Source of the DNA: a virus
Direction: 5' to 3' (one strand)
DNA length: 23,648 bases
IMG/VR virus record: IMGVR_UViG_3300015076_000011
Location: 1-23,648 of that record
Part shown: positions 7,431-17,115 of the stretch, one piece after another
Numbering within the stretch: position 1 is the first letter of the stretch
Layout: every line of letters starts with the position of its first letter
Position numbers and translations under genes: made by a program
The notes under the pieces: model-generated
Databases searched by the model: none
What the model was told of the DNA's origin: nothing
The model's input: the letters and a program-made list of their open reading frames with translations, nothing else

Positions 7431-7751
7431 TCACGCAACGTCAGTAGTAAACGGGTATGTGGCGACTTTGTACAAGCCTGCGACACCCGTAAGACTGCCT
7501 GCAGTCGGATTCAAGAAATAGATTGTGACAACGCCCGCAGCAGTAACAACGCCAAACACTAACAAGCCAACGGGCTGCACAGCCGGGGACGACACGTCCA
7601 CAATGTCACCGATCGAGGCGCCGGGGATATTGGCAAGCGTTCCGCCAGCGGTAGCTGCCGCCGCAACAGCGGTGGTGGCCGTAAGCGTAACCGAGCCGGT
7701 ATTCGCTTGCTGAAAAATTCTTTGCCACTCAGTACGTGAAAGAATAGGCAT
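7431..7751 (-). CDS. Small beta-rich protein of unknown function
   Basis: 106 residues, not recognised. After an N-terminal helix (SRTEWQRIFQQAN) it is almost entirely Ala, Thr, Gly and Val with alternating hydrophobics, suggesting a small beta domain. There is no signal peptide or clear membrane segment. It stands between small proteins and large terminase and ends 3 bases before the terminase ATG. A minor virion component is the simplest guess. Confidence 0.6.
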   Translation of the reverse strand: MPILSRTEWQRIFQQANTGSVTLTATTAVAAAATAGGTLANIPGASIGDIVDVSSPAVQPVGLLVFGVVTAAGVVTIYFLNPTAGSLTGVAGLYKVATYPFTTDVA

Positions 7752-7752
7752 T

Positions 7753-8013
7753 TTATTTATTCCCGCCGCTGCCGCGATTTTGCGACATTCCGGTCATGAG
7801 GTTAGAGGTAGCTGCCTTAAGAACTCGGGCGTTACCTGGAAGCTGGTTCATGGATAGGTTCTTGCTGCCAGAATCAATACCAGGTGCCTGGCCTGCAGGG
7901 ATTCCGATGCTGTTAGTCTTGCTCAAGTTGTAGTAATTGACTTTGCCGTTATCGCCGCCGTCAACTCCCATACCTTCGGTAGATTTGCCTTTCGGCACGC
8001 CTGCAGTAGCCAT
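7753..8013 (-). CDS. Small Gly/Asn/Ser-rich protein of unknown function
   Basis: 86 residues, low complexity, probably disordered (Gly, Asn, Ser, Lys; NRGSGGNK at the end). The RBS is good (GAGG 11 bases from the ATG). It is packed between its neighbours with one base after it and 5 bases before it, so it belongs to the virion operon. No family recognised. Confidence 0.6.
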   Translation of the reverse strand: MATAGVPKGKSTEGMGVDGGDNGKVNYYNLSKTNSIGIPAGQAPGIDSGSKNLSMNQLPGNARVLKAATSNLMTGMSQNRGSGGNK

Positions 8014-8018
8014 CGTAT

Positions 8019-8381
8019 TTATTCGTCCTCTGATTGAATTGTTCGGCCTTTGACTGCCGGAATTTGATCTAACTTACCAATGATGATTTGAATTTTATCT
8101 TTTTGAGGTTCGTCATCTTTCGCTACGCTCTTAGTGACCCAAGAACCGTAAAGCATCTTTATCATTTCTTTGTCGCCTTCTAGCGCAAGCTCAATAGCTT
8201 TGTCTAGCAGTGCGGGCATGTGGTCCTTCATCTGAGCGCGCAATTCGCTCTCGATTTGGACCTTTAGCAAAGAAACTTGGTTTTTCGAGCCTGGGGGGCG
8301 CCCTTTAGGGTTACCGCTCTGCCCTTTCTTAAAAAGGTGTTTAGGCTTACTGCTTTCAGCCGGTAATGATTCGTCGGTCAT
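8019..8381 (-). CDS. DUF5681-like protein in the small-terminase position
   Basis: 120 residues from the ATG at 8381. The N-terminal FKKGQSGNPKGRPPGSKN is the signature of the DUF5681 family, common in phages next to terminase. A helical, Glu/Lys-rich segment follows (residues 30-75). It may be the small terminase subunit or a terminase helper; DNA-binding HTH features are not obvious. An in-frame GTG at 8414 with AGGA 4 bases before it is an alternative start. I prefer 8381 because its upstream CGAATTAAACACG closely matches CGAATAAATACG before the next gene. Confidence 0.65.
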   Translation of the reverse strand: MTDESLPAESSKPKHLFKKGQSGNPKGRPPGSKNQVSLLKVQIESELRAQMKDHMPALLDKAIELALEGDKEMIKMLYGSWVTKSVAKDDEPQKDKIQIIIGKLDQIPAVKGRTIQSEDE

Positions 8382-8436
8382 CGTGTTTAATTCGCTTCGT
8401 CTCAGAAGCGTCACTTTATCCTGTAAGGGAGTGAGG

Positions 8437-8511
8437 AAAAGCCGATCCGGACGTTATCCCGGCATAGTCCGCTTTGTATCGCGGGGCCTTACACTTAGGC
8501 TATCGGCTTTT
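8437..8511. ncRNA. Four-way-junction (cloverleaf-like) RNA element
   Basis: The gap between two virion genes holds a perfect 10-bp closing stem, AAAAGCCGAT (8437-8446) with ATCGGCTTTT (8502-8511). Inside it are three perfect 4-bp hairpins: CCGG-8 nt-CCGG (8447-8462), CCGC-8 nt-GCGG (8469-8484) and GCCT-7 nt-AGGC (8486-8500). The whole is a tRNA-shaped cloverleaf. It is not a tRNA: there is no T-loop consensus on either strand, and two loops are 8 nt. The A4/T4 ends make it a possible bidirectional terminator; it could also be an RNase III processing site or an independent RNA. It splits the virion operon between small virion genes and the terminase block. Confidence 0.55.
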
Positions 8512-8546
8512 AAACTTGCCTGTGCGTCACAAAGTGTGTCTGGCAT

Positions 8547-8867
8547 TTACGCTTCCGCAACTTTTGCGTAACTAAGGATGCCGGTGGCGCCCGCGTCTTG
8601 AATTACCGAAAGAGTGTATGCCGTGTTTCCGGCAGGAAGCTTGACAACAATCGGCCCGAACTGCGCGCCGATTAGCGGATCGGTAATTACCGCGCTGGCA
8701 GGGCCTATAGAAAATCTAAAGTGACAATTGCCCGTGGCCGCTAAAATTACGTTTTCAATGCCGACCGGGAGCGTTACCGAAACGCTGGACGCGCCGAGCG
8801 TAAGCGCCCCGGAAATACACGAGCCATCGGGAAAAAAGTTGTATATGTAACCGTTTTGAATTGACAT
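8547..8867 (-). CDS. Small beta-sandwich-like presumed virion protein
   Basis: 106 residues, mostly short beta strands with Gly/Ala/Thr turns (SVSVTLPVGIENVILAATGN). The composition resembles phage decoration or fibre-associated domains, but I cannot name a family. The start follows the previous stop by 3 bases, so it forms a pair with the next gene upstream. The RNA element at 8437-8511 lies directly after it. Confidence 0.55.
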   Translation of the reverse strand: MSIQNGYIYNFFPDGSCISGALTLGASSVSVTLPVGIENVILAATGNCHFRFSIGPASAVITDPLIGAQFGPIVVKLPAGNTAYTLSVIQDAGATGILSYAKVAEA

Positions 8868-15622: not shown

Positions 15623-15707
15623 TAGATATGTATATAAATTACAGTGTACTAACTAAACAGAGGTAAAACGAATGACTTATAATGCTCAACAGCAAGGAGC
15701 CTGCGCC

Positions 15708-16007
15708 ATGACCTACAACCCTGACACCGTGAGGTGGTACGTGTGGGATGAGGAAGGTAACCAAGAAGACGGCATGGAACTTGTGTCTGCCTCCGACTAT
15801 GACGCCGTGCGCGCCGAGCGCGACGCCATCGACGCGGACCACGCGAAGCTGCTCAGGAAGTATCGGGAGCTTGAGGCAGATAACGAGCGCCTTCTGTCGC
15901 TGGTTTGCCAGTGGTCGGAAAGTTGCACCGGGCGGCACGGGTCGCAAATGCAGTGCGTCGAAACGCCGTTTGCGGAGGGTGGCTCGCAGTCGGGAAAAAT
16001 AGTGTGA
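15708..16007 (+). CDS. Small coiled-coil protein before the methyltransferase
   Basis: 99 residues from the ATG at 15708, which has AAGGAG 8 bases before it. An in-frame ATG at 15672 with GAGG also has a good RBS; it adds 12 residues and repeats the start MTYN, as if a start region had been duplicated. Middle part coiled coil (RAERDAIDADHAKLLRKYRE). Its end lies in a 20-bp direct repeat and overlaps the GTG of the methyltransferase (GTGA), so the last residues (SGKIV) were probably created when the cassette came in. Function unknown. Confidence 0.6.
   Translation: MTYNPDTVRWYVWDEEGNQEDGMELVSASDYDAVRAERDAIDADHAKLLRKYRELEADNERLLSLVCQWSESCTGRHGSQMQCVETPFAEGGSQSGKIV
15979..15998 (+). repeat. Left copy of 20-bp direct repeat flanking the methyltransferase
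   Basis: GTGGCTCGCAGTCGGGAAAA, identical to 17002-17021, exactly 1023 bp apart. The left copy is the last coding part of the coiled-coil gene. The pair brackets the methyltransferase gene precisely. Confidence 0.85.
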
Positions 16008-16969
16008 GTAAAGCGTACTACAACGAGAACGATCCGAAAGCTGCCGCATGGCTACGCGAATTGATCAAAGTCGGCGCCATTGCATCCGGCACTGTAGACG
16101 AACGAAGCATAGAGGACGTGACACCAAATGACCTGCGAGACTTTACCCAACACCATTTCTTCGCCGGTATCGGAGGATGGAGTTACGCCTTACGATTGGC
16201 TGGATGGCCCGACGACCGCGCCGTCTGGACCGGAAGCTGCCCATGCCAACCTTTCAGCGCGGCAGGCAAAGGCGGCGGGGTCACTGATGAGCGGCATCTA
16301 TGGCCCGCGCTCCACCATCTTATCCGACTCTGCCGCCCTAGCGTCGTCTTTGGAGAGCAGGTTGCGAGCAAGGACGGCCTCGGCTGGCTCGACACTGTTC
16401 AAGCTGACTTGGAAGGTGCGGGTTACGCCTGCGGGGCGTTCGATCTGTGCGCTGCGGGCGTCGGGGCACCGCACATCCGGCAGCGGCTTTACTTCGTGGC
16501 CCACGACAACCGCAGTGGACGGCAAGCGCGGAGACAAGCCGGCGCGGCCTTGGGACACGGGGAAGCCGTTGCCGCAGATAGCTGCGCTATCTGTGTGGCC
16601 GATTCCTCGAGCCAACAACCACACCGGGATCGGGACGCGAGGCGAAGGCGGGGAGAACCTGCAGACGGCAGCGTCATGGGCCACGCCCACGGTACGGGAT
16701 CACAAGCACGGGCCGAGCATCGGGACGGTGCCGACGAATGGCTTGCTGGGCCGTCACGTGTGGGCCACTGGGCCAATGCCGAATTCATCCCTTGCACAGA
16801 CGGGAAAGCCCGGCCAATTGAACCCGGCACATTCCCGCTGGCTCATGGGATACCCCACCGTGTGGGACTCCTGCGGGGCTACGGGAATGCAATCGTGCCG
16901 CAAGTCGCCGCGCAGTTCGTGAGCGCCTACTTGGATTGTTCAACTGCCACAAAAAAGGCCAAGCCATGA
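16004..16969 (+). CDS. DNA (cytosine-5) methyltransferase
   Basis: 321 residues from GTG 16004, chosen because it overlaps the preceding stop; the N-terminus SKAYYNENDPKAAAWLREL is the usual one for this phage group. Motif I FFAGIGG (52-58) binds AdoMet; motif IV PCQ (80-82) carries catalytic C81; motif VI is EQV (118-120) instead of the common ENV; motif VIII RQRL (159-162); motif X GYGNAIVPQVAAQF (292-305). The variable target-recognition part lies at about 168-260. No endonuclease partner is seen, so it probably protects phage DNA from host restriction. GC is far above that of the integrase and replication genes, and direct repeats flank it, both signs of transfer. A second long frame overlaps it (16287-16922). 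Confidence 0.93.
   Translation: MSKAYYNENDPKAAAWLRELIKVGAIASGTVDERSIEDVTPNDLRDFTQHHFFAGIGGWSYALRLAGWPDDRAVWTGSCPCQPFSAAGKGGGVTDERHLWPALHHLIRLCRPSVVFGEQVASKDGLGWLDTVQADLEGAGYACGAFDLCAAGVGAPHIRQRLYFVAHDNRSGRQARRQAGAALGHGEAVAADSCAICVADSSSQQPHRDRDARRRRGEPADGSVMGHAHGTGSQARAEHRDGADEWLAGPSRVGHWANAEFIPCTDGKARPIEPGTFPLAHGIPHRVGLLRGYGNAIVPQVAAQFVSAYLDCSTATKKAKP
16287..16922 (+). CDS. Overlapping frame inside the methyltransferase gene, family-like
   Basis: In the +1 frame of the methyltransferase, 211 codons run from ATG 16287 (open back to an ATG at 16128) to TGA 16922. The product has motifs I know from proteins annotated in other phages and prophages: LTWKVRVTPAGRSICALRAS, SWPTTTA, WATPTVRDHKHG, NGLLGRHVW and QLNPAHSRWLMGYPTVWDSC. 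ICALRAS...TSGSGF is read from the DNA of methyltransferase motif VIII, and the C-terminal SCRKSPRSS from motif X. So either a real overprinted gene exists or the similarity is a by-product of methyltransferase conservation. GGCGGGG 6 bases before the ATG is a fair RBS. Function unknown. Confidence 0.35.
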   Translation: MSGIYGPRSTILSDSAALASSLESRLRARTASAGSTLFKLTWKVRVTPAGRSICALRASGHRTSGSGFTSWPTTTAVDGKRGDKPARPWDTGKPLPQIAALSVWPIPRANNHTGIGTRGEGGENLQTAASWATPTVRDHKHGPSIGTVPTNGLLGRHVWATGPMPNSSLAQTGKPGQLNPAHSRWLMGYPTVWDSCGATGMQSCRKSPRSS

Positions 16970-17115
16970 GAGCACCCTGGATCATTCTTGCGATGCTGCT
17001 TGTGGCTCGCAGTCGGGAAAAGATTGATATGCACAGACTTACTCGAAGTGACGGGCGAGTAACCGGCTGGTCGCGCCAGGTCAGCTGCCCACGGGCGGAA
17101 CTCGTCTCCTTATGA
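16966..17115 (+). CDS. Possible 49-residue peptide over the right direct repeat
   Basis: The ATG overlaps the methyltransferase stop and the stop overlaps the ATG of the next gene, so it bridges the two. It begins MRAPWIILAMLLVARSREKI: a short hydrophobic segment (PWIILAMLLVA) then basic residues. It crosses the right copy of the direct repeat, in a different frame from the left copy, so it may be a chance product of the cassette junction. Confidence 0.42.
   Translation: MRAPWIILAMLLVARSREKIDMHRLTRSDGRVTGWSRQVSCPRAELVSL
17002..17021 (+). repeat. Right copy of 20-bp direct repeat
   Basis: Identical to 15979-15998. Recombination between the copies would remove exactly the methyltransferase unit and leave the coiled-coil gene ending ...SGKD instead of ...SGKIV. 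Confidence 0.85.

Follow-up and report, generated by a model that had tools for sequence, protein, structure and literature searches.

The window analysed here, a stretch of 23,648 nucleotides of a virus record, contains a methyltransferase gene whose +1 frame holds a second long open reading frame, raising the question of whether that frame encodes a protein and, if it does, how this protein is related to the enzyme it overlaps. The frame-0 gene (alpha) is a C5-cytosine DNA methyltransferase by its motifs, with I, IV (PC), VI (ENV/EQV), VIII and X all present and these residues near-invariant in the family alignment (A2); it matches phrog_363 (E=1.6e-83) and Pfam PF00145 (1.6e-12), and the alpha profile also matches M.HhaI. 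Motif IX and a target-recognition domain are absent from this same chain, motif IX being read in +1 and the corresponding region being unfolded in the AlphaFold2 (AF2) model. The second long frame announced by the original prediction is real and longer than first described, since the ORF proposed there has the correct stop but starts at an internal ATG, with no Shine-Dalgarno-like sequence in the 25 nt 5' of it (Table 1). The motifs quoted at that time were all found in the +1 frame, and the correspondences between the two frames were as described, with ICALRASGHRTSGSGF read over DLCAAGVGAPHIRQRL, LNPAHSRWLMGYP over IEPGTFPLAHGIP and RKSPR over motif X. The +1 product (beta) matched the phrog_1008 profile (3.7e-24, residues 35-249), while Pfam and NCBIfam scans of this product gave no match and none was found in a PDB profile search with the +1 alignment. 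The virus record also encodes integrase, DnaB-like helicase, DNA polymerase, terminase, portal and major head genes, a set consistent with a temperate tailed phage.

Table 1. Coordinates of the overlapping gene pair and its parts in the window.
Feature	Position	Strand	Description
Alpha gene, C5-cytosine methyltransferase	16004..16969	+	frame 0; 321 aa, GTG start; motifs I-VIII and X, no IX
Beta gene, +1-frame ORF	16128..16922	+	264 aa, ATG start; lies entirely within the alpha gene
ORF of the original prediction	16287..16922	+	211 aa; its start codon is an ATG within the +1 gene
GAGG, possible Shine-Dalgarno of the +1 gene	16112..16115	+	12 nt before ATG 16128
Motif I FFAGIGGWSYAL	16157..16192	+	frame 0
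Motif IV TGSCPCQPFSAAG	16229..16267	+	frame 0; catalytic Cys included
Motif VI VFGEQVAS	16346..16369	+	frame 0
Motif VIII GVGAPHIRQRLYFV	16457..16498	+	frame 0
Motif X RGYGNAIVPQVAAQF	16874..16918	+	frame 0
+1 N-terminal domain	16344..16457	+	overprinted on motifs VI-VIII; helix 63-85 and beta hairpin 91-113
+1 W-x-T-P unit 1 (WPTTTAVDGKRG...)	16497..16592	+	
+1 unit 2 (WPIPRANNHTG...)	16596..16676	+	
+1 unit 3 (WATPTVRDHKHGPSIGTVPTNGLLGRHVW)	16677..16772	+	similar to the most frequent of the recurring module types (17 loci)
Motif IX QLNPAHSRWLMGYPTVWD	16815..16868	+	+1 frame; by motif-IX HMM and in-frame relatives
Frame-0 linker opposite the W-x-T-P units	16502..16741	+	low complexity, unfolded

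The coding status of the second frame was examined in 80 IMG/VR loci fetched by the methyltransferase frame alone, so that the selection was blind to +1. Synonymous-codon shuffling of the 69 nonredundant loci predicted 220 stops in +1, against 21 observed, all of them at the edges, and 2.2 loci free of +1 stops, against 53 observed; no stop depletion was seen in frame +2 or in the antisense frames under the same shuffling. Across the core of the overlap (methyltransferase residues 95-285) the +1 frame was open in 67/67 loci tested, and stops clustered just 5' of the +1 start and at the +1 end. Besides, a comparison of four-fold sites in 128 nonredundant loci (saturation level 0.28) gave matches of 0.33 before the overlap and 0.30 after it (0.28 expected), against 0.39 over motifs I-IV, 0.63 over VI-VIII, 0.48 over the variable region and 0.73 over IX-X inside it, with a peak of 0.93 at LNPAHSRWLMG; synonymous variation is reduced exactly within the overlap and saturated on both sides. 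The +1 protein was conserved beyond codon shuffles in 395 of 400 locus pairs, a count to be read with the caveats that the loci share ancestry and that the shuffles erase all synonymous conservation, whatever its cause, the latter being met by the frame-specific depletion of stops and by the bounding of the signal by the overlap. Moreover, the arrangement persists in genomes with a GC of 37-45%, in which long ORFs are unlikely to arise by chance. It is near certain that the second frame is coding, and three of the checks put forward with the original prediction, namely +1 stops in homologues, synonymous variation and a search against phage proteins, came out on its side.

What the +1 frame contributes to the enzyme is best seen at motif IX, which is not recognisable in frame 0 between motifs I-VIII and motif X. 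In the methyltransferases of actinophages that are encoded in a single frame, motifs I-VIII are followed, sometimes after LPTPxxxD units, by PRLxPAFxEWMMGxPxGWVT and then by GNGVVPQQA, which is the canonical order, and a profile of these proteins (A5) aligns the PRLxPAFxEWMMGxPxGWVT tail with M.HhaI 271-307, with a weak score and in the right place. By homology, the LNPAHSRWLMGYPTVW of the window is the same element. The phrog_1008 profile matches the +1 ORF of the types carrying IX and X together at 9.8e-75 and the in-frame C-terminal part of L285 at 4.7e-58, an HMM built from +1 frames matches the in-frame region of L285 and L302 at 3.5e-8 and of L370 at 3.9e-11, and a 24-residue motif-IX HMM from +1 tails matches canonical single-frame methyltransferases at up to 2.2e-9 (10,336 ORFs), a figure that is optimistic because the loci were partly chosen by motif. 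The single-frame set was picked in part by a DNA pattern for motif IX, and the actinophages L285-L287, L290 and L292 were picked by motifs IV-VIII. Since the +1 profile has no PDB match, the identity of motif IX rests on these in-frame relatives. The base pattern by codon position at IX in loci arranged as in the window (0.71/0.81/0.80) favours +1 as the dominant frame. Single-frame C5 methyltransferases carry, in frame, a variable region and motif IX to which the C-terminal half of the +1 protein (W-x-T-P units and LNPxxxxWLMGxPxxW) is homologous, so that in this half +1 is probably the ancestral methyltransferase frame and frame 0 the newer reading. The idea of a second protein overprinted on the methyltransferase was right over motifs VI-VIII and for the last residues over motif X, but not for the C-terminal half.

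Three frame architectures of the enzyme were distinguished. Motifs I-VIII and X lie in frame 0 and IX in +1 in type A, to which the window belongs; I-VIII, IX and X all lie in one frame in type B; and I-VIII lie in frame 0 with IX and X in +1 in type C. The +1 frame has stops inside IX in 37/37 type B loci tested (51 stops observed against 49.5 expected), and it is open over IX in loci without an in-frame IX, which indicates that +1 codes for IX only where frame 0 lacks it. Over VI-VIII, +1 is still protected in the 25 type B loci that match the +1 HMM (5 stops against 22.4 expected). Phage C5 methyltransferases from Mycobacterium, Gordonia and Rhodococcus (L285, L286, L287, L290, L292) share the same motif IX with the window, some together with LPTP units, but carry I-VIII, IX and X in one frame. 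In one of them, Rhodococcus phage ReT1v-2 (L290), a complete single-frame methyltransferase with motif IX in frame (1567-2766) is accompanied by a long +1 ORF (1607-2536) in which several LPTP units are present and motif IX is missing, a hint that the units may function independently of IX. Additionally, three loci (L209, L238, L241) have motifs I-VIII in the same ORF as LNPxFVEWLMG and motif X in another frame, and a fourth (L178) has methyltransferase pieces in different frames; these are possible natural frame-fusion intermediates or sequencing indels.

The reading that we prefer, with a probability of about 0.84, is that the +1 product is the subunit bearing motif IX in a split C5 methyltransferase, an enzyme made from two overlapping and separately translated genes. 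Alpha would supply the AdoMet-binding and catalytic domain (I-VIII) together with motif X, and beta would supply motif IX and the W-x-T-P array in place of the variable region, these being attached to a small, folded domain at the N terminus that overprints VI-VIII. By analogy, both parts would be needed and would assemble into a heterodimer like that of M.EcoHK31I, and the pair would be expected to methylate phage DNA, probably as a protection against host restriction. In the AF2 model of alpha, I-VIII and X fold, residues 194-251 and 276-292 are mostly below pLDDT 50 and no small domain is formed; the frame-0 linker opposite the units has a pairwise identity of 28% over residues 169-270 and a pLDDT <50 across much of its length. 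The +1 chain alone was predicted weakly (pLDDT 61), with one confident piece, formed by the N-terminal helix and hairpin listed in Table 1 (pLDDT about 80-90), and two C-terminal helices at motif IX, and a Foldseek search with this model gave no match below E=0.77.

An enzyme of this general kind, a split C5 methyltransferase, already has biochemical precedent. M.EcoHK31I was reportedly described by Lee, Kam and Shaw in 1995 as a two-polypeptide C5 methyltransferase (YGGCCR). The small subunit of this enzyme is encoded in an alternative frame within the large gene, as the small gene of the window lies in an alternative frame overlapping the large one. Motifs I-VIII and X of M.EcoHK31I are located on the large subunit and only IX on the small one, and its predicted target-recognition domain was assigned to the large subunit (PMC3404938). 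The same division of motifs is found in the window, with I-VIII and X in alpha and IX in beta, but the context is a phage rather than a restriction-modification system, the +1 protein carries a variable W-x-T-P array (the two systems being compared by motif layout), and target recognition is proposed here to reside in +1 instead of the large subunit. M.AquI, an alpha/beta C5 methyltransferase, is naturally split after motif VIII (PMC3404938); its beta subunit carries IX and X, whereas motif X of the window stays in frame 0, and its layout resembles that of type C relatives (e.g., L293, Firecracker gp5) and not that of the window.

Translation signals of the +1 gene also bear on how the two frames are used. 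Among 206 distinct +1 ORFs, an ATG with a Shine-Dalgarno tetramer in front of it precedes the conserved core in 138, against 21% of control ATGs, and strong Shine-Dalgarno sites were found in 59/198, against 6% in controls; in AT-rich loci, AGGAG at 7-8 nt recurs before the +1 start. In the window the spacing of the candidate site (GAGG, 12 nt) is long and less than ideal, and the same spacing is present in L057, L081, L096 and L101. The own Shine-Dalgarno and start of the +1 gene, together with a constraint that reaches back over VI-VIII, favour a separate protein over a frameshift fusion, and separate translation seems the likelier mode of expression. It is nevertheless conceivable, if improbable, that programmed +1 ribosomal frameshifting joins motifs I-VIII of frame 0 to the units and motif IX of +1, and that there is no separate second protein. 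Such a fusion would restore the domain order, three of the loci mentioned above do have I-VIII and LNPxFVEWLMG in one ORF, and frameshifting was likewise raised for the overlapping methyltransferase frames of Corndog gp6/gp7 in the study of Cluster O mycobacteriophages, which left the choice between two products and a frameshift open (PMC4351075). However, a fusion needs no constraint on +1 as far upstream as VI-VIII, the +1 frame usually possesses a similarly placed Shine-Dalgarno and ATG of its own, and motif X, being in frame 0, would drop out of the product. Firecracker was examined as a relative of Corndog, and its gp5 lies in +1 relative to gp6 and matches the +1 HMM (8.1e-9). In these Corndogvirus pairs (Corndog gp6/gp7, Firecracker gp5/gp6), as in the window, one methyltransferase is shared by two overlapping frames, but they are of type C, with IX and X both in the +1 product and frame 0 stopping just after VIII.

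The chances are similarly poor that +1 encodes an independent overprinted protein with an unrelated job (e.g., a regulator or an anti-restriction protein) that resembles motif IX by chance, even though its N-terminal domain over VI-VIII has no known relative and the 25 loci whose methyltransferase already has an in-frame IX retain the +1 ORF over VI-VIII. The homology of the +1 tail to motif IX of in-frame methyltransferases, the opening of +1 over IX only where frame 0 lacks it, and the existence of relatives with both IX and X in +1 all speak for a part of the methyltransferase instead. Decay of the gene, in which frameshift mutations have left motif IX stranded in +1, could account for the variation of the IX and X frames by lineage, as repeated indels would give, yet it is very improbable, since stops would then build up, and 67/67 nonredundant loci keep two open, conserved frames. 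Finally, a spurious ORF due to GC-rich codon usage and methyltransferase conservation, the database artefact that the original prediction had left as its alternative, is excluded for practical purposes, despite the high GC of the overlap (65%) and the erratic annotation (methyltransferase only, +1 only, both or neither), by the depletion of stops under codon shuffling and in no other frame, a synonymous constraint that ends with the overlap, the persistence of the arrangement at 37-45% GC, its conservation in hundreds of phages and the Shine-Dalgarno starts.

In the probable motif IX-bearing subunit, the central region of the +1 protein carries an array of 0-9 units that begin with W/L-x-T-P, at a median spacing of 35 aa, three of which form the array of the window. 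Eight module types (clusters) recur, mostly at several array positions in different phages. Module identity was 0.68-0.84, against mostly 0.36-0.61 for the N-terminal core of the same proteins, except in one cluster in which part of the core was included and the two identities were equal. The units look as if they were swapped as modules, in the variable region where C5 methyltransferases keep target recognition. Multispecific C5 methyltransferases of Bacillus phages (SPR, phi3T) carry tandem short recognition modules in their variable region, which are swapped between phages. Tandem modules, rearranged from phage to phage, are a feature that these enzymes share with the window family, a likeness of layout, although the Bacillus phage enzymes are encoded in a single frame and without dual coding. 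The W-x-T-P units may perhaps act as swappable target-recognition modules. A further step, tentative and short of an even chance in our estimate, is that the +1 chain is a detachable specificity subunit, with an array of interchangeable recognition modules that recombines between phages, making the pair a dual-coded multispecific methyltransferase; if this is true, every module swap must leave both frames open.

The two-frame pairing occurs widely among phages and is in most cases misannotated. Matches to +1 proteins of three query kinds were found in 195, 571 and 1,186 phage records (overlapping sets), prophage-like copies occur across Proteobacteria and some other phyla, and GC in the family spans about 0.37 to more than 0.7. 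A search of IMG/VR with a DNA pattern for NPx(F/Y)VEWLMG(F/Y)P recovered about 80 loci, nearly all with a methyltransferase in the same relative frame, and the VEWLMG(F/Y)P loci without a methyltransferase match (L227, L240) lie at the ends of fetched stretches. A stand-alone +1 family located away from methyltransferases was rejected, since nearly all VEWLMG(F/Y)P loci overlap a methyltransferase in the same relative frame. Both ORFs are annotated in K1ind2, fTaEco03 and PhiXhv-5, the +1 ORF only in PMG1, FoX4, PhiXhv-7 and Cr-LKS3, the methyltransferase only in PVN06, BcepC6B, EBPR podovirus 2 and ESSI2_ev129, and neither in Riah. An annotation of one ORF of the pair alone probably describes an incomplete enzyme, and the pairing offers a possible answer to the annotation puzzle posed by hypothetical proteins, by Mte8-like proteins and by the question of two products or a frameshift in Corndog. 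In the literature searched, we found no account of overprinting with a methyltransferase, nor of the breadth of the pairing, of three frame architectures of one enzyme or of dual-coded module arrays. These loci form an extensive natural collection of long genes that code in two frames of the same strand. Besides, with one enzyme divided into halves over the two frames, they point to an unusual route to overlapping genes, in which an existing protein is split between frames and each half is then overprinted.

Streptococcus phages MM1 and 5093 have been described as carrying 'totally overlapping' methyltransferases, with products in two frames of the same DNA (PMC5601072). They were considered as members of the family and rejected, their methyltransferases being complete in a single frame with RKLTPRECWRLQGFPDW in frame 0 and their +1 ORF having no match to the +1 HMM. 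The coordinates are 7480-8637 and 7631-8056 in L504 and 6067-7026 in L503, with a canonical methyltransferase, and the annotated +1 ORF of MM1 spans motifs IV-VIII at low GC and has no detectable relation to the +1 family of the window. In four further loci (L160, L040, L041, L024) a second methyltransferase match, partial or complete, lies near the first, an apparent tandem duplication of the gene pair. In the window itself, an ORF of 111 aa (15672-16007), for which family searches gave no confident match, is located directly 5' of the methyltransferase gene and overlaps its start by 4 bases. The methyltransferase gene pair is flanked by a perfect 20-bp direct repeat, GTGGCTCGCAGTCGGGAAAA, at 15979-15998 and 17002-17021; the copies are 1023 bp apart, an arrangement that would fit insertion or exchange of the pair as a cassette.
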